Positions 7,303 to 40,569 of a DNA stretch of 64,000 nt are shown piece after piece. Position 1 is the stretch's first letter. Each line of letters begins with the position of its first letter. Where the stretch lies: assembly GCA_945882415.1 (NCBI GenBank), contig CAMCWC010000008.1, positions 1-64,000 of the forward strand, given 5' to 3'. The translations under genes and the position numbers were made by a program. The DNA comes from Chthonomonas calidirosea (GTDB lineage Bacteria > Armatimonadota > Fimbriimonadia > Fimbriimonadales > Fimbriimonadaceae). The notes beneath the pieces were generated by a model. The model was not told the origin of the DNA, searched no databases, and worked only from the letters and a program-made list of their open reading frames with translations.

Positions 7303-7334
7303 GCCCCGGCTCGATAAACGAGCCGGGGCTTTTT
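7303..7334 (+). terminator. Rho-independent terminator
   Basis: An 11-bp GC-rich perfect stem (7303-7313 with 7319-7329) around an ATAAA loop is followed by TTTTT (7330-7334). It ends the transcript of the stalk protein, 12 nt after its stop codon, and sits against the convergent aldolase gene. Confidence 0.92.
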
Positions 7335-8164
7335 CATGCCTGAAGCTTCGAGATGGCCAGGGCCAGCTCCGCTGGAAACGCAGACTGTGTCAGTGGTAAG
7401 CGAACGGCGTCGCTGCCAATCACTCCTAGCGACTTAAGAATGGCCTTGTGGGCCATCGGCTGCCCGCTTGCGCGGACATGGTCTAGGATGTCGGCAATCA
7501 ACGCGCTGGCGGCACTCCCGCCGGGCTGTGTGGCCCTGGAGAGCCAAAGAGGAAGCACATTCGCGGCACCGCTGATGCTCCCGCTCCAGCCTTGCGCCAG
7601 CGACTCAGGAATCAGCCGCTCATCCCCTACAAAAAGCGAGCCACTTGGAAACGCTTGTCGGTAGCTCTCGATATTGCCTCTTTCGCCACTGCTGTCTTTC
7701 AAACCCACGATGTTGTCAACCTTCGCCAATTCCGCAACTAACCCAGCAGAAAGCGTGATTCCGGTCCGTTTCGGAAAGTTGTACAGCAAAATTGGCGAGC
7801 TCGTCCGTTTGGCAAGTGCCTCAAACCAAAGCTGAATGTTCGCTTCCGGGACCTCGCGAAAGTACGCGGGAGGCATGACCAGCACTCCTGCCGCGCCGGC
7901 TTTCCGCGCTTGCTCGCTGAGCCAAGCCGCTTCTTCCAGACTCGGGGTCGCGATGCCGAGGATGATCGGGAGGTCGGTCAACCGCACTGCCTCGCGAACG
8001 AGATCCCGCTTCTCAACCGCGCTGAGCGATGGTCCTTCGCCGTTTGTCCCCGCCAGCACCACGCCGCTGCATTCGTTCGCCTTGAACCAGCTCAGCAGCT
8101 TCAGCAAGCTAACATAGTCAATCTCTCCCGATTCGGTAAACGGAGTTACTGCCGCTGGATACAA
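7334..8164 (-). CDS. Dihydrodipicolinate synthase / KDG aldolase family protein
   Basis: This 276-residue class I lyase has the DapA/NanA/KdgA (beta/alpha)8 fold. The GTNGEG motif (Thr40), Tyr128 in YNFPKRTG with Arg133, and the Schiff-base lysine Lys156 in GLKDSSG are all present. The reaction would be pyruvate-dependent aldol condensation or cleavage; the exact substrate (aspartate semialdehyde, keto-deoxy sugar acid or another) cannot be told. The only usable start in this frame is TTG 8164, 8 nt behind the fumarylacetoacetase stop, so it is the last gene of a three-gene operon. The context (a sugar ABC operon nearby and FAH upstream) favours a catabolic aldolase over lysine biosynthesis. 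Confidence 0.85.
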   Translation of the reverse strand: MYPAAVTPFTESGEIDYVSLLKLLSWFKANECSGVVLAGTNGEGPSLSAVEKRDLVREAVRLTDLPIILGIATPSLEEAAWLSEQARKAGAAGVLVMPPAYFREVPEANIQLWFEALAKRTSSPILLYNFPKRTGITLSAGLVAELAKVDNIVGLKDSSGERGNIESYRQAFPSGSLFVGDERLIPESLAQGWSGSISGAANVLPLWLSRATQPGGSAASALIADILDHVRASGQPMAHKAILKSLGVIGSDAVRLPLTQSAFPAELALAISKLQA

Positions 8165-8172
8165 CCCGGGTT

Positions 8173-9330
8173 TTACGATGGAACCACGACTCCACGAACT
8201 TCGCCAAGGCTGATGAAGTGACCGTCTTTGCTTCCGTAGCCCCGGAGCACAACTTCGTCGCCGTCCTGCAAAAAGGTCCGAGTTTGGTCTCCGACCGCAA
8301 TCGGCTGACTGCCGCGCACCGTGAGCTCAAGAAGCGAGCCGAACGTGCCGGGCTCGGTGCCGCTGATCGTCCCGGTCGCATAGAGATCACCCGATTCCAA
8401 AGCCGTGCCGTTGGATGACTGGTGGGCAAACTGCTGGGCGAAGCTCCAGTAGAGTTCGGCGCTTGTGGTTCGGCAAACAACGTGCTCGACGCCGTCCACA
8501 ACCAGAGCAACCTCCAGTTTCAGATCGTAATGCTGAGGGCCATCGATGGCGAGGTGCGGTAGAACGGCAGGCTCTTGTGCCGGACCTTGAATTCGAAACG
8601 GTTCCAAGGCATCGAGAGTCACCAGCCAAGGTGAGATGCTCGTGGCAAAAGACTTCGCCAAGAATGGCCCGAGCGGTTGATACTCGAACCGCTGCACATC
8701 ACGGGAAGACCAATCGTTAACCAGCACCACTCCGGCGATGCTCGAGTCCGCTTCTGAGATCGGGACGACCTCACCTAGAGCAGTGGAACGGCCAATGTAG
8801 AACCCAAGTTCAAGTTCGAAATCCAGTTCCTGAGTCGGGCCGAAGATCGGCGGCACCTCGCCCGCCGGTTTGGTGATGCCGTTTGGTCGAGTAATGGCCG
8901 TGCCTGATGGAACCACGGTGGAAGCGCGCCCGTTGTAGGCGACTGGAAGGTGTCGGTAGTTCGGCAGAAGCGGCGGCATGTCTGGTCGGAACATGCGCCC
9001 GACGTTGCTCGCGTGGTTGATGCCGCTATAGAAATCGGCAAAGGCCTTGACGGGCATCGGGGTCAACAGCTCAAGCTCGGCGATTGGAAGCAGCTGTCTC
9101 GGTTCTTCCAGATATGCACGGGCTGCGCTTCGAGCGGCCTGAACTTGTGCGGTCGTGAGCGGTACAAGCGGGTCCAGCCACTCTAGAATTCCCGCGCTCG
9201 AAAGGTCATCGGTCGCGATGGCGTGATCCTCAATGCGGATCACGTAGCCGTGGTTCCGGCATCTCCCGAGGGGCAAGTTGTCGAGTCCGAATCCCTCGGT
9301 GCCCGGTTGCAGCCAACTTGGATGTCTCAT
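8173..9330 (-). CDS. fahA: Fumarylacetoacetase
   Basis: This enzyme hydrolyses 4-fumarylacetoacetate to fumarate and acetoacetate, the last step of tyrosine/homogentisate degradation. The 385-residue sequence has the N-terminal SH3-like domain and the FAH catalytic domain. Key residues line up with animal FAH: Asp99 and His106 in ADFYSGINHASNVG, Glu172 and Glu174 in DFELELGF, Asp206 in NDWSSRDVQ, plus HLPVAYNGRAS, PLGPFLAKSF and GTISGTEPGTFGS. ATG 9330 overlaps the upstream stop as ATGA; an ATG at 9339 would add three residues. No homogentisate dioxygenase gene is in the window. This is a full-length true FAH, not a short FAH-superfamily sugar-acid hydratase. Confidence 0.93.
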   Translation of the reverse strand: MRHPSWLQPGTEGFGLDNLPLGRCRNHGYVIRIEDHAIATDDLSSAGILEWLDPLVPLTTAQVQAARSAARAYLEEPRQLLPIAELELLTPMPVKAFADFYSGINHASNVGRMFRPDMPPLLPNYRHLPVAYNGRASTVVPSGTAITRPNGITKPAGEVPPIFGPTQELDFELELGFYIGRSTALGEVVPISEADSSIAGVVLVNDWSSRDVQRFEYQPLGPFLAKSFATSISPWLVTLDALEPFRIQGPAQEPAVLPHLAIDGPQHYDLKLEVALVVDGVEHVVCRTTSAELYWSFAQQFAHQSSNGTALESGDLYATGTISGTEPGTFGSLLELTVRGSQPIAVGDQTRTFLQDGDEVVLRGYGSKDGHFISLGEVRGVVVPS

Positions 9331-10166
9331 AACGTCCATCCTAGCTTGCTGAGACCCTCAGCGGGTTCTTCAACTGAGCAAGAACCAAAAGAAGCGAAGA
9401 GCGCGCGAGCATCCTCGATGGCGTCGCGAGAGACATCCCAGTCGCGGAACAGGAATTGTTGCTCTTCAAATCGCCACTCACTCGGCTCTTCCGACTCGAG
9501 CACGACTTTGATCTCGGAAACCGAAAGATCGTGCTGAATCGCCGCTGCGGTGGCGCCCAAGACGTTCACGAAGCCCAGCATCCCGTGTCCGCTCAGCGGC
9601 TCGTGCAATCCGGCGGTGAGCTTGAACGGTAGCTCCAACGCAACACACTCCCAAATGAAGGTCGCCACGATTGCGGTGGCGGGTGGAGTCGGCCCGGTGC
9701 GCAACTTAGCGCCGAAAGCATCAGCATCGGCGAGGGCATCAAGAATCATCGGAAACGGCCGATCTGGGTTCAGCTCCACTAGCACTTCGTCGGCCGCACT
9801 AAATCCGCGCAACTGACCGAGGACTTCATCCACGTCATCGGTATCCGGCAGTTCGCATTCGTACGACCCAACCTTGCCGCCGGCTTGGAGAAAAGCATTC
9901 AGATCACGAGCGTCTTCAAATCGATCGTTCTCCCACTCGCCTCCTCGGCGCCCGATGACGGCCACGGGCTCGTCAGTGAGGGTCAATACGGCCGAGTGAG
10001 AAAGCGCGGTAATCGGTGCCGAGAACCGATGCAACATCCAGCGCAGATCCGATGACTGCAAGGCTCGGTATTCGCCTACTGCCTCTTCTGCTCGTAACTT
10101 CGCGGGCGGAAACATTCCGCTGTAATCGATGCCTCTCCGCAACAGGTCTCGCAAGGATGCTTTCAT
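9327..10166 (-). CDS. Conserved protein of unknown function translationally coupled to fahA
   Basis: This 279-residue soluble protein has no signal peptide or membrane helix. Notable segments are the N-terminal RGIDYSGMFPPAKL, the central GSYECELP, LVELNPDRPFPMILDAL, KLRTGPTPPAT and the C-terminal LPFKLTAGLHEPLSGHGMLGFVNVLGATAAA. The repeated strand-helix rhythm and the PFKLTAGLH motif suggest a barrel-like fold, but I cannot name the family. ATG 10166 (MKASLRD) was preferred over a TTG five codons upstream. Its TGA overlaps the fahA ATG by 4 bp, so stoichiometric expression with FAH is likely. Involvement in aromatic amino-acid breakdown is inference from coupling only. Confidence 0.8.
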   Translation of the reverse strand: MKASLRDLLRRGIDYSGMFPPAKLRAEEAVGEYRALQSSDLRWMLHRFSAPITALSHSAVLTLTDEPVAVIGRRGGEWENDRFEDARDLNAFLQAGGKVGSYECELPDTDDVDEVLGQLRGFSAADEVLVELNPDRPFPMILDALADADAFGAKLRTGPTPPATAIVATFIWECVALELPFKLTAGLHEPLSGHGMLGFVNVLGATAAAIQHDLSVSEIKVVLESEEPSEWRFEEQQFLFRDWDVSRDAIEDARALFASFGSCSVEEPAEGLSKLGWTL

Positions 10167-36265: not shown

Positions 36266-36355
36266 GGGGTGTACTGGAGATTGTACTGGGTCGTCTGATA
36301 GAAGCACCGATCTCCGGATTCAAGAATTCGTATTCTCAAGTCTGCGCCGGTGTTG

Positions 36356-36361
36356 TATAGT
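36356..36361 (+). promoter_or_regulatory. Strong -10 of the CUT1 importer
   Basis: TATAGT (5/6) preceded by TTG lies 12 bp before the ATG at 36374, implying a 5' leader of only about 6 nt. No clear -35. The divergent MFS gene starts at 36265, so both promoters share about 108 bp. Confidence 0.5.
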
Positions 36362-36373
36362 GGTACCGACCAG

Positions 36374-38824
36374 ATGAGATGCCGACGTCCTATCTTGGCC
36401 GCGCTCGGGTGCGCACTTGCAACATTTGCATGGGCAGCACCGTCCGACCCCGGCAGTGTAACCCCGAAACGAGACCTCGTCATTTGGGGCGTCAGCATCG
36501 GAGCCGACTCGAAAGGCCAGAGCGCCGTCATCCGAGAGTTTGAGCGCCGAAACCCGGACGTGCGCGTTCGCATCCTAAGCATGGGCGCGGGACAGATGGA
36601 CCCGCAGAAGTTGATGACGAGCATCGTTGGGAACGTTGCTCCGGACGTGATCAACCAAGACCGCTTCACGATCGCCGACTGGGCGAGCCGCGGCGCATTC
36701 CGGTCGCTCGACGACTTGATTGAGCGAGATAAGGATAAAGATCCCCTCACTCCCAAATTTGAGGACTACTACGAGGCGCCTTGGAAAGAGGCGATGTATG
36801 ACGGCAAGATTTACGCCATCCCGACCGGTGCCGACAACCGCATCCTCTACTGGAACCGAAAGATTTTTCGTGAGCAATCGGCCCAACTGACTGCGGCTGG
36901 TCTCGATCCGAGTCGCCCCCCGCGAACCTGGCCCGAACTGCTCGCTTACAGCAAAGCCCTTACCGTTCGAAACAGCGACGGTTCGCTAAAGCGAGCAGGG
37001 TTCATTCCTAACTTCGGCAATGCATGGTTGTACATGTATTCCTTCCAGAACAACGCTGACTTCATGACGGCGGACGGGAAGAAATGCACGTTATACAGCC
37101 CGGCCAGCGAGGAAGCCCTCAACTTCATGAAGGAGGGCTATGAACTCCTCGGGGGTTATGAGAACGCGAAGTCATACGAATCCGGATTCCTTGGCAAAGA
37201 GAACGATGCGTTCATAACCGGGAAAGTCGCCATGAAGATTGATGGCGACTGGATATTGAACGACCTGTCTCGCTACGCTCCACAACTCGAATTGGGGGCG
37301 GCCCCACCGCCGGTCCCCGAAGATCGATTCAACAAGGTCGGCCGATTCAAGGACGAGAAAGATACGTTTATCACTTGGTTCGGTGGCTTTTCTCTCGCCG
37401 TCCCGAGAGGGGCCAGAAATGTGGCCGACGGCTGGGAGTACATCAAGTTCGCCACCAGCACCGAGGGCCGAATGATCGAGTACGCCGCCCAAAGGGATTG
37501 GGAGCGTCGCCGTGGTCGGACCTTCATCCCGCGAATGCTCGCCAGCCGAAATGCGAACGAGCAGGCATTTGAGCGGTTCAAGCCGGCCGACAAAAAGTTT
37601 GCCGATGCGCTGTCCATGCACATCGAAATGGCACCCTATGGCCGAGTTCGGCCAGCGACGTTCGTCGGTCAGACGCTATGGAGCGAGCACGTGAAGGCGA
37701 TGGAGGCGGCTCTTTACGGGAAAGCCACTTCGAAGGAAGCGTTGCTGGCCGGACAGGCCGCCGTGCAGCGGGAACTTGACGCTTTTTATAGCAAATCGAA
37801 TTATCCCGTCATCGACTTGGCGATCCCAACCTACATCGCGATCGGAGTCCTTGTTGTAGCGCTTGCGATTGGTGGCGTTTGGTTCTCGAAGCTGAACCTC
37901 GGAAGACTCGCGAAGAACGAGGCGAAATGGGCTTACCTATTTGTTGCGCCTTGGGTGATTGGGTTTGTCGTGCTCACGCTCGGGCCGATGATCGCATCGC
38001 TGTTCTTCAGCTTCACGCAGTACGACGTTCTGAACGAAGCTCGATGGGTGGGTCTCCGCAACTATCAGGAGATGTTCACCAGCGACCGAACCACGGTTCT
38101 CAAGGCATTTAGCAATGCGGCTTATCTTGCGATGGTTGGTGTTCCTCTTGGGCTCGCAACTGGGCTAGCGGTAGCAATGCTGCTCAACGTATCGACGAAG
38201 GGAATGCGGTTCTACCGAACCCTCTTCTACATGCCGGCCATCGTCCCCGTCGTAGCGAGCGCCGTTTTGTGGACATGGGTGCTCACTCCCGACCCGAGCA
38301 AGGGGCTCATCAACTCGTTTTGGAAGGAGACCTTGACCGCGTGGCTTTCCGTACCGCCACCGACTTGGCTTCAAAGTGCGGACTGGGCAAAGAACGCGCT
38401 GATCCTCCAAGGACTTTGGGGAGCAGGGAGCGGAATGTTGCTTTGGCTCGCTGGATTGAAAGGCGTTTCGACGACGCTTTATGAAGCTTCCGGGATTGAT
38501 GGAGCCACCCCACGGCAGCAGTTCTGGAACGTTACGTTCCCGATGCTCACGCCAATTGTCTTCTTCAATTCGGTCATGGGCTTTATCGGGGCGATGCAGG
38601 AGTTCGACCGGCAGTACGTTATGAAGCCATCGAAGGATGGCCCGATCGGTCCGGACGATGCGCTCCTGACTCCGGTCTATCACCTCTTCCGAAACGGCTT
38701 TGCCTTCTTCAAGATGGGTTATGCCTCCTCCCTCGCCTGGTTGATCTTCGTGGTCATCATGGTCCTGACCTTCACCCAGTTTCGACTGCAAGATCGCTGG
38801 GTCCACTACGAGACAGATAAGTGA
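36374..38824 (+). CDS. Fused sugar-binding protein and CUT1 ABC permease (MalE/UgpB + MalF/UgpA type)
   Basis: This 816-residue protein joins two normally separate subunits. Residues 1-25 are a signal peptide. About 30-470 are an SBP family 1 receptor (VIREFERRNPDVRVRI, LMTSIVGNVAPDVINQ, GKIYAIPTGADNRILYWNRKIF, GKVAMKIDGDWIL). A helix at about 480-503 (TYIAIGVLVVALAIGGVWF) returns the chain across the membrane. From about 515 a full CUT1 permease follows (WAYLFVAPWVIGFVVLTLGPMIASL, VGLRNYQEMF) with the ATPase-docking EAA loop YEASGIDGATPRQQFW at about 702. Topology puts the receptor in the periplasm and the EAA loop in the cytoplasm. It overlaps the partner permease as GTGA. No ATPase gene is nearby, so a shared MsmX-like ATPase is likely. 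Confidence 0.93.
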   Translation: MRCRRPILAALGCALATFAWAAPSDPGSVTPKRDLVIWGVSIGADSKGQSAVIREFERRNPDVRVRILSMGAGQMDPQKLMTSIVGNVAPDVINQDRFTIADWASRGAFRSLDDLIERDKDKDPLTPKFEDYYEAPWKEAMYDGKIYAIPTGADNRILYWNRKIFREQSAQLTAAGLDPSRPPRTWPELLAYSKALTVRNSDGSLKRAGFIPNFGNAWLYMYSFQNNADFMTADGKKCTLYSPASEEALNFMKEGYELLGGYENAKSYESGFLGKENDAFITGKVAMKIDGDWILNDLSRYAPQLELGAAPPPVPEDRFNKVGRFKDEKDTFITWFGGFSLAVPRGARNVADGWEYIKFATSTEGRMIEYAAQRDWERRRGRTFIPRMLASRNANEQAFERFKPADKKFADALSMHIEMAPYGRVRPATFVGQTLWSEHVKAMEAALYGKATSKEALLAGQAAVQRELDAFYSKSNYPVIDLAIPTYIAIGVLVVALAIGGVWFSKLNLGRLAKNEAKWAYLFVAPWVIGFVVLTLGPMIASLFFSFTQYDVLNEARWVGLRNYQEMFTSDRTTVLKAFSNAAYLAMVGVPLGLATGLAVAMLLNVSTKGMRFYRTLFYMPAIVPVVASAVLWTWVLTPDPSKGLINSFWKETLTAWLSVPPPTWLQSADWAKNALILQGLWGAGSGMLLWLAGLKGVSTTLYEASGIDGATPRQQFWNVTFPMLTPIVFFNSVMGFIGAMQEFDRQYVMKPSKDGPIGPDDALLTPVYHLFRNGFAFFKMGYASSLAWLIFVVIMVLTFTQFRLQDRWVHYETDK

Positions 38825-40569
38825 TTTCTCCCCAATTCCTCTTCGCCATTGGGACCCTACTTGCCTGGATCGGCTGGGGATTCGCGCTGTCTGCCGTCGC
38901 AAAGTTGGCCAGATACTTCGGTCGCGATCCGCGAGTTGACCGGCCAGCAGAACTTCGCGGCGCGTTTGTGGCCGCTGCCATCGGTGGAGTGACTTTGCTC
39001 GTGAGCAGTCAAGCGAACCTCCTCACTCCGACCAAGGCGACCGGTGTTTGGAGATTTCCGCTGACCTGGTTTGTCATGCCGTTTACGGCCTGGCTAATGG
39101 CGATATCGGTTGTCATGATCAGCATTCGCTCCGTGCAGTCCTTCTTGGCCATCACGCCAGAAGAGCGAACCGAGAAGTTGCAGACCCTCTTTGGATGGGT
39201 TGTCGTTATCGCAATTGCCGGCACCCTTTACTTCACCGACAAGACCTCCAAGATTGATGTCTTGACCGGTGGGATCGAGGTCACTCCCGCGACCGGTGCA
39301 GGGCTGTTGTTCCTCGCGGTCGCTGCCGTTGCCGGAATGACCTTGGCGGCTCAGGCCACGCGATCACGCGATATTGCCCGGGGGCTCACGAGCCAGCTGA
39401 TGTTGTTGATCGGGTCATTCGTCTTCGGAATCCCGTTCGTCTTTGCGTTGGTTACCAGCTTTAAAGAGGACCAGGACATGGTCTCCCCTTCCGGTGGAAT
39501 TGTTTGGATTCCGCGAGTGCAGCAGACCGTTCCGTACATGGACAAGAAGACTCCGCTCTATGCCACCGATTACAAAGGTAAGAGTATTCAGGGCACCGTT
39601 CTCGATCGAAATGCGGACGGATCGGTGACGGTTGACATCTTCAAACCTCTTTCGATCCGCGGCACAACCTTCCAAACCGACGCATCAAAGCTAAAGGAGA
39701 TTCCAAGAGATGCTCCCGTCGTGACAGCCAAGTTCGAATCACAGGAAGTGACTGGTTTTGTCACGGAAGAGATGGAAGACGGTCGCCGGCAGGTGGAGAT
39801 CACCGAGCCGGAGTCGCTCAAGGGGAAAGTTCAGGTTTTCGAGCCGGCCCAAGTTCAAGCGGTACGTAAGACCGGCCTTCGCTGGCAGAACTATGAGGAC
39901 ACGTTCAGCTACTTACCGCCCGAGACGAACAACGGATTGGTGTATTTGAAAAATACGCTGATCCTTGTGATCTTTTCCGTGATCGGCACGATCATGAGTT
40001 CGGCAATCGTGGCTTATGCCTTCTCCCGCATGTCATTCCCTGGCAAGGAAGCCCTGTTCAAGCTGTTGCTCAGCACGATGATGCTACCGGCGGCGGTGAC
40101 CCTGTTGCCGCAGTTCCTCATCTTCCGCGGCCTGGGTTGGATCGACACCCTGTTCCCGCTCTGGGTGCCGGCGTTCTTCGGCAGCGCCTTCAACATTTTT
40201 CTTTTGCGGCAGTTCTTTAAGAACATCCCGATGGAATTGGAGGACGCGAGCAAGATTGATGGCTGCTCCTACATTCGGACCTTCTGGGACATCATGCTGC
40301 CCCAAATCAAGCCGGCACTGGCCGTCATCGCGATTTGGACCTTCATGGGTGCGTGGAACAACTTCATGGGCCCGCTGATTTACATCAACTCACCCGAGAA
40401 CATGCCGCTTAGCTACGCGCTTCAGCTGTTTCAAGGCGAACGTTCCGGTGAACCTGGCTTGTTGATGGCGTTCAGCGTGATGACGATGATGCCGGTGCTC
40501 TTGCTGTTCTTCTTCGCCCAGCGGTACTTCATTGAGGGCGTGACGCTGAGCGGGTTGGGCGGCCGCTAG
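38821..40569 (+). CDS. CUT1 ABC permease (MalG/UgpE type) with extra N-terminal helices and periplasmic insertion
   Basis: This 582-residue protein is the second permease of the fusion importer. A normal MalG-type protein is about 280-300 residues. Here about 190 N-terminal residues add five predicted helices (e.g. [37 protein letters not shown]). The MalG core begins at [23 protein letters not shown]. Its first periplasmic loop (about 214-370) holds an extra beta-rich domain ([34 protein letters not shown]). The EAA loop [22 protein letters not shown] (about 473) is intact. The start is GTG 38821 overlapping the upstream TGA. The loop domain may contact the tethered binding protein. Confidence 0.92.

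Follow-up and report, generated by a model that had tools for sequence, protein, structure and literature searches.

Predicted SH3-like units in the periplasmic loop of an oversized MalG-type permease that accompanies a receptor-MalF fusion in Armatimonadota

Why should a permease subunit carry a large extra loop domain when its partner already carries the receptor? This question is raised by two overlapping genes in a 64,000-nucleotide stretch of DNA (the window) from an assembly named Chthonomonas calidirosea (GCA_945882415.1, contig CAMCWC010000008.1, positions 1 to 64,000 of the forward strand; Armatimonadota, Fimbriimonadaceae in GTDB). The upstream gene (36350..38824, forward strand) encodes a solute-binding protein (SBP) joined to a MalF-type permease. 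The downstream gene (38821..40569, forward strand) encodes a MalG-type permease that has five extra N-terminal helices and two small predicted barrels in its first periplasmic loop. The genome carrying the pair (G000) is 3.36 Mb, and the pair lies on its contig C8. Our analysis shows these additions to be real and conserved, and we suggest that the loop may help to seat the tethered receptor.

The MalG-type gene is an intact open reading frame of 582 amino acids. In the same genome, the open frames of most other MalG relatives are 281-313 amino acids long, which agrees with a first-pass annotation of this DNA that had put the protein at about twice the normal size. The exceptions are frames of 390 and 519 amino acids; the former, on contig C4, overlaps its MalF gene, and its true size is probably normal. 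Pfam places the permease domain BPD_transp_1 solely at residues 397-571 (60.2 bits, cut-off 26.4). Six hydropathy peaks, at residues 202, 389, 420, 453, 500 and 556, mark the core transmembrane helices (TM), besides five extra peaks. The canonical TM1 spans residues 183-212 (39367..39456, forward strand) in the AlphaFold2 model, and several SugB/MalG chains align from about residues 187-193. Pfam and family conservation place TM2-TM6 at 39889..40566 (forward strand), with what we take to be an EAA-type loop near residues 470-495. The scores against the NCBIfam MalG equivalog (92.4 bits, cut-off 261) and UgpE (102.6 bits, cut-off 297) do not reach the cut-offs, so we use the label MalG-type permease and assign no substrate. 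The best NCBIfam models for the two permease cores are UgpA at 105 bits and UgpE at 103 bits, both below cut-off.

A wrong start codon could have made the insertion an artefact, as the first-pass annotation itself had allowed. The GTG start at 38821 overlaps the TGA stop of the fusion gene upstream, residues W83 and G150 are invariant across the family, and residues 1-370 are matched in 82 of the 85 genomes of the family (Fimbriimonadaceae-type Armatimonadota). Together these observations rule out a wrong start, and the N-terminal region and the insertion are conserved parts of the protein.

The AlphaFold2 model and chain alignments place about 140 extra residues in the periplasmic loop that joins TM1 to TM2 in the MalG/SugB fold. 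Two units make up the insert, at residues 241-296 (39541..39708) and 297-351 (39709..39873), both on the forward strand and both delimited by hhalign, the model and structure search; they are flanked by linkers at about 214-240, which is conserved, and 352-357. The two units are homologous: hhalign aligned them with a probability of 97.7% and a score of 55.4, while the best of 40 column-shuffled controls reached 20.4, which rules out a chance likeness. When the insert was modelled alone from 38 sequences, it formed two beta barrels with a predicted local distance difference test score (pLDDT) of about 95 over residues 238-347. The beta domain of about 150 residues with two similar halves that had been noticed earlier is thus confirmed, and its boundaries are corrected from 214-370 to 241-351 for the barrels.

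The closest fold matches of the units are mostly eukaryotic domains of the Tudor/Agenet/KOW type, with middling scores. The best Foldseek match of the insert model was a tandem Agenet domain (E 2.6e-4), and VIA structure comparison of single units gave Z up to 7.3 (below 8) over about 45-57 residues, with root-mean-square deviations of 1.3-3.0 among the top matches. A sequence search of the PDB with the insert profile returned three chance-level matches (best E 0.03), and Pfam searches with the N-terminal module, the insert or either half found nothing above cut-off, with chance-level matches up to E 10. Because Z stays under 8 and no sequence family matches, we describe the units as SH3-like in their predicted fold, not as members of a family.

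The N-terminal module comprises residues 1-182 (38821..39366, forward strand), close to the roughly 190 residues and five helices proposed earlier. Family-averaged hydropathy shows five peaks before TM1, centred at residues 14, 56, 93/102, 129 and 168, and the AlphaFold2 model has helices at 4-33, 41-66, 88-108, 113-139 and 156-178, with two strands at 77-85 and 146-154. Since TM1 starts inside in the MalG fold and the added helices number five, the N-terminus and both strands are probably on the periplasmic side; the loop charges are compatible with this and not decisive. The core of the full-length model was poorly predicted (pLDDT 68, predicted template modelling score 0.39), and packing was not read from it.

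The partner gene encodes 824 amino acids, with Pfam SBP_bac_1 at residues 59-374 and BPD_transp_1 at 601-762 in one open frame. Receptor and transmembrane domain therefore share one polypeptide, as in tethered-receptor importers, and the fusion is kept across relatives; the earlier proposal of a tethered binding protein holds. From N- to C-terminus the protein consists of the solute-binding domain (residues about 40-470; 36467..37759), an extra membrane anchor at the junction seen by hydropathy (485-518; 37802..37903), and the MalF-type permease domain recognised by NCBIfam and hydropathy (520-824; 37907..38821), all on the forward strand. Its translation start is more likely the ATG of residue 9, which precedes a signal-like stretch. 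The best solved relative of the receptor is MBP1 (4r9f), and its best solved relatives are sugar-binding proteins. Judged by helix spacing in the sequence, the MalF of the fusion has no large domain between TM3 and TM4, the place of the MalF-P2 domain; the extra domain of this pair lies between TM1 and TM2 of MalG.

We examined how far this layout extends in the phylum. All 20 genomes of the genus contain a relative at E 1e-80 or better, full length in most cases; within the order the insert profile matched in 84 of 113 genomes, and within the phylum in 124 of 291. Beyond the family, only a single unit is covered by these matches, and the open frames are about 290-510 residues long. Direct inspection found one unit with about three extra helices in orthologues such as L158, L166 and L132, and one unit with no extra helices at L128, L137 and L170; the phylum search missed the single unit or matched it weakly at L185-L192, L194-L197 and L203-L205. 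In a tree of MalG cores (92 rows from 118 cores collected, 109 distinct, with the two-unit clade thinned), the two-unit, five-helix form makes up one clade of 25 rows (support 100/96), nested within a larger clade (80 rows, support 100/99) of fusion-type MalGs. Because the orthologues among which it is nested have a single unit and either three extra helices or none, we read the window form as an expansion, which most likely arose through duplication of one unit plus added helices. The simplest history that the tree suggests has one unit ancestral to the 80-row clade, a duplication in the Fimbriimonadaceae lineage and several losses.

A scan of genome contigs by peptide patterns gave 37 loci, nearly all titled Armatimonadetes or Fimbriimonadaceae; the scan spans all phyla, but its patterns come from this clade and recover close relatives only, not distant single-unit forms. 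The insert was not found on viral contigs, and on plasmids it matched only four rhizobial records at E 0.06 or worse, which we judged to be chance (three are annotated alpha-glucosidase). For the fusion, the best plasmid matches with most query coverage fall over two separately annotated genes. Two bins titled Chthonomonas sp. (L103 and L116; UBA1950 and UBA2387) have the two-unit form, which apart from them occurs in Fimbriimonadaceae-type genomes. A contig titled Methanoregulaceae archaeon (L113, JADZEW010000011.1) has a Fimbriimonadaceae-type pair followed by a second SBP-MalF fusion (7308-9788), and its archaeal title is probably a binning or naming error. In genome G222, the fusion at L148 (3654-6087) is split across two overlapping frames by a frameshift or an assembly error.

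We propose, with not quite even confidence, that the pair is a tethered-receptor importer of the carbohydrate uptake transporter 1 (CUT1) class in which the MalG loop barrels are a helpful, non-essential seat for the receptor. The two permeases would form a CUT1-type (type I) ATP-binding cassette (ABC) sugar importer with its receptor covalently tethered to the MalF subunit. The tandem barrels would stand at the periplasmic mouth, next to the receptor's landing site, and could serve as a passive guide that restricts the rocking of the tethered receptor and seats it over the pore. Such a guide would be comparable to MalF-P2 of E. coli, but would come from the other subunit, and it would be helpful rather than essential since orthologous pairs without barrels exist. 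The N-terminal helices probably either pack on the added anchor helix of the receptor or make MalG more stable within the membrane. A shared MalK, encoded at another site of the genome, would probably power the importer with ATP; sharing is likely because a single OB_MalK-type ATPase was found (C5:134545; L217 5309-6493) despite several CUT1 permease pairs.

The first-pass annotation had suggested the loop domain as the docking site of the receptor, and had asked whether the two always occur together. By genome, this is usual. At E up to 1e-100, 173 of the 291 phylum genomes have a fusion-like match, usually though not always with both domains in a single frame, and a comparison by hand found such matches in 116 of the 124 genomes with the insert, the others being G021, G029, G046, G051, G074, G154, G181 and G192, several of which are incomplete. 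The fusion frame lies directly upstream of MalG in 35 of the 37 named loci, and the other two are at contig starts. Coordinates show the two genes unlinked in the family genomes G048, G061, G062 and G063, and in family f19 the MalG is located away from the fusion. The neighbours are known for 78 tree rows: insert and fusion occur together in 64, the fusion alone in 5, the insert alone in 4 and neither in 5. The loci were picked by insert or fusion matches plus the window genome's other MalGs, so this is not a random sample. The 14 of 92 rows whose fusion status is not known were excluded from these counts and from the comparison of branch pairs.

Several observations at the level of single loci and sequences weigh against a receptor seat. 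Fusion-linked MalGs without the insert stand at L193, L201, L202, L209 and L175. Conversely, separate SBP and MalF genes lie alongside the two-unit insert MalG of L182 and adjoin the insert MalG of L169, and at L155 and the second locus of L148/L219 (L148 at 7374) an insert MalG stands beside an unfused full-length MalF, with no SBP gene in the stretches examined (that of L155 stops at the contig end). L182 groups with the plain MalGs of the window genome in the core tree (support 100/98), and therefore the insert is found on at least two MalG backgrounds. Across independent branches, a change of the insert is followed by fusion status in 0 of 5 pairs, too few for significance. Mean pairwise identity over 34 linked pairs was 0.77 for the MalG core, 0.67 for MalF, 0.62 for SBP and 0.72 for the linker 214-240, against 0.38 for the insert and 0.29 for the N-terminal module; so low a value for the insert gives no hint of a docking surface under strong constraint. 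The distance test, of Mantel type, is itself weak because its rows are related: given MalF, insert and SBP distances had a partial r of 0.19 (2 of 500 permutations reach this value) and N-terminal module and SBP distances an r of -0.08 (393 of 500), and given the MalG core, insert distances had partial r of 0.53 with MalF and 0.42 with SBP. These correlations weakly support a role of the insert where receptor and permease meet, and they do not prove docking. Exceptions in both directions thus rule out strict co-occurrence of insert and fusion, and the insert does occur in MalGs without a fused receptor, the finding named at the outset as contrary to a docking site. What stands of that claim is that the extra parts are real and that insert and fusion mostly share genomes; as stated it is not supported, and docking of the receptor by the loop domain is possible, not required.

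The main rival to a guiding role is that the barrels and extra helices hold the MalF-MalG heterodimer together or help it to assemble, for example through contacts with MalF loops or the receptor's anchor helix, and never dock the receptor. The insert distances track MalF at least as well as SBP once the MalG core is accounted for, and the insert is also present in free-receptor systems, both as expected of a scaffold; however, the MalG fold implies that this periplasmic loop must be close to where the receptor lands, and a positive correlation with SBP is left once MalF is accounted for. We consider the scaffold somewhat unlikely. SH3-like folds commonly bind peptides or polymers, and the units might instead bind peptidoglycan, an outer-membrane porin or lipoprotein, or oligosaccharide, and so place the importer by the sugar supply. 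A variable outside partner would fit the fast divergence of the insert, but nothing found here speaks positively for one and the Tudor/Agenet/KOW-type matches are uninformative on ligand, which makes this role distinctly improbable in our view.

Finally, the loop could be a neutral or lineage-specific embellishment, with MalG loop size drifting by repeated gain, duplication and loss and with little function. Its absence from several orthologues, at least 6 changes on the tree, and unrelated large TM1-TM2 regions in L172 of the window genome (about 270 residues) and in Thermotogales (PMC2246101) all fit such drift. Nevertheless, nearly all family members keep the insert, and the linker 214-240 retains an identity of 0.72; we regard mere drift as improbable.

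Several arrangements stand side by side in the window genome: the receptor fusion of the window pair with its barrels, another receptor fusion whose MalG lacks barrels, and a MalG with a large loop of a different kind. The second fusion pair (L175, 12003-15328; G000:C8:143002-146327) consists of an 809-residue SBP-MalF and a 301-residue MalG with neither insert nor extra helices, and is a natural internal control. A third SBP-MalF fusion of 804 amino acids (L216, 6167-8578; G000:C16) has no MalG detected in the 12 kb examined. The lone 519-residue MalG of L172 (4762-6318; G000:C15:68761-70317) consists of TM1, about 270 hydrophilic residues and the core; the profile of the barrel insert gives no match to it, and no MalF or SBP gene was detected in its 10-kb stretch. 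At a guess, this oversized C15 MalG could be the unlinked partner of the C16 fusion. Across most of the 37 named loci, we found no third conserved gene family hinting at a substrate.

We compared the pair with known systems. UgpAE, MalFG and SugAB, all CUT1, have the same core in both permeases, and SugB and MalG align by sequence and structure, but ordinary members have neither the fusion nor the extra helices nor the loop barrels. In OpuA, the receptor domain is linked to the permease, and the transmembrane domains of GlnPQ and OpuA are homodimeric. Published work on GlnPQ and OpuA describes importers with their own substrate-binding domains. Their receptors are likewise fused to permeases. 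They belong to amino acid and betaine importer families, whereas the window pair would be a heterodimer of the CUT1 class in which the receptor precedes MalF in one chain and the extended MalG is a protein of its own. The P2 domain of MalF reportedly interacts with the binding protein, to go by the title of Daus et al. 2009. P2 of E. coli, too, is a folded domain on the periplasmic side, set into a loop of a CUT1 permease, but has about 180 residues in MalF TM3-TM4, while the window domain is in MalG TM1-TM2 and predicted to be SH3-like. PMC2246101 places the 180-residue MalF periplasmic domain between TM3 and TM4, and PMC3150292 cites work on the interaction of the MalF periplasmic loop with MalE.

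The nearest precedent is MalG1/MalG2 of Thermotogales, with the extra region in the same loop. As far as the available text of PMC2246101 goes, these oversized MalGs have a hydrophilic TM1-TM2 region of about 500 residues, whose role was not known there, and an ordinary MalG in the C-terminal 300 or so residues. The window MalG has its insertion at the same site, a comparison made by position and not by sequence, but its extra region is about 140 residues, and its five extra N-terminal helices have no counterpart reported in that text. The part consulted of the complete genome paper of Fimbriimonas ginsengisoli gives 17 sugar ABC sets and does not mention fusions, and we found no published description of this pair in Armatimonadota in the literature searched, which covered few subscription papers. 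With oversized MalGs in Thermotogales and fused-receptor permeases such as GlnPQ and OpuA already known, the new importer architecture announced at first is too strong a term. As it stands, the window pair is a modest variant from a poorly studied phylum.

A bolder form of the seat proposal, which we consider unlikely, is that receptor handling is split between the subunits. MalF would tether the receptor, and MalG would catch it in trans with a tandem SH3-like cradle and tether-gripping N-terminal helices, the cradle having been doubled in the Fimbriimonadaceae lineage; the result would be a type I importer whose receptor is captive and mechanically guided, not diffusing. If this cradle reading is true, the pair would be a natural CUT1 importer with inseparable receptor and pore, in which docking could be studied without diffusion, and natural pairs with zero, one and two barrels would be ready-made controls. 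The pair also adds a case, beside MalG1/MalG2 of Thermotogales, in which the TM1-TM2 loop of MalG has accepted a domain, as it appears to do repeatedly.

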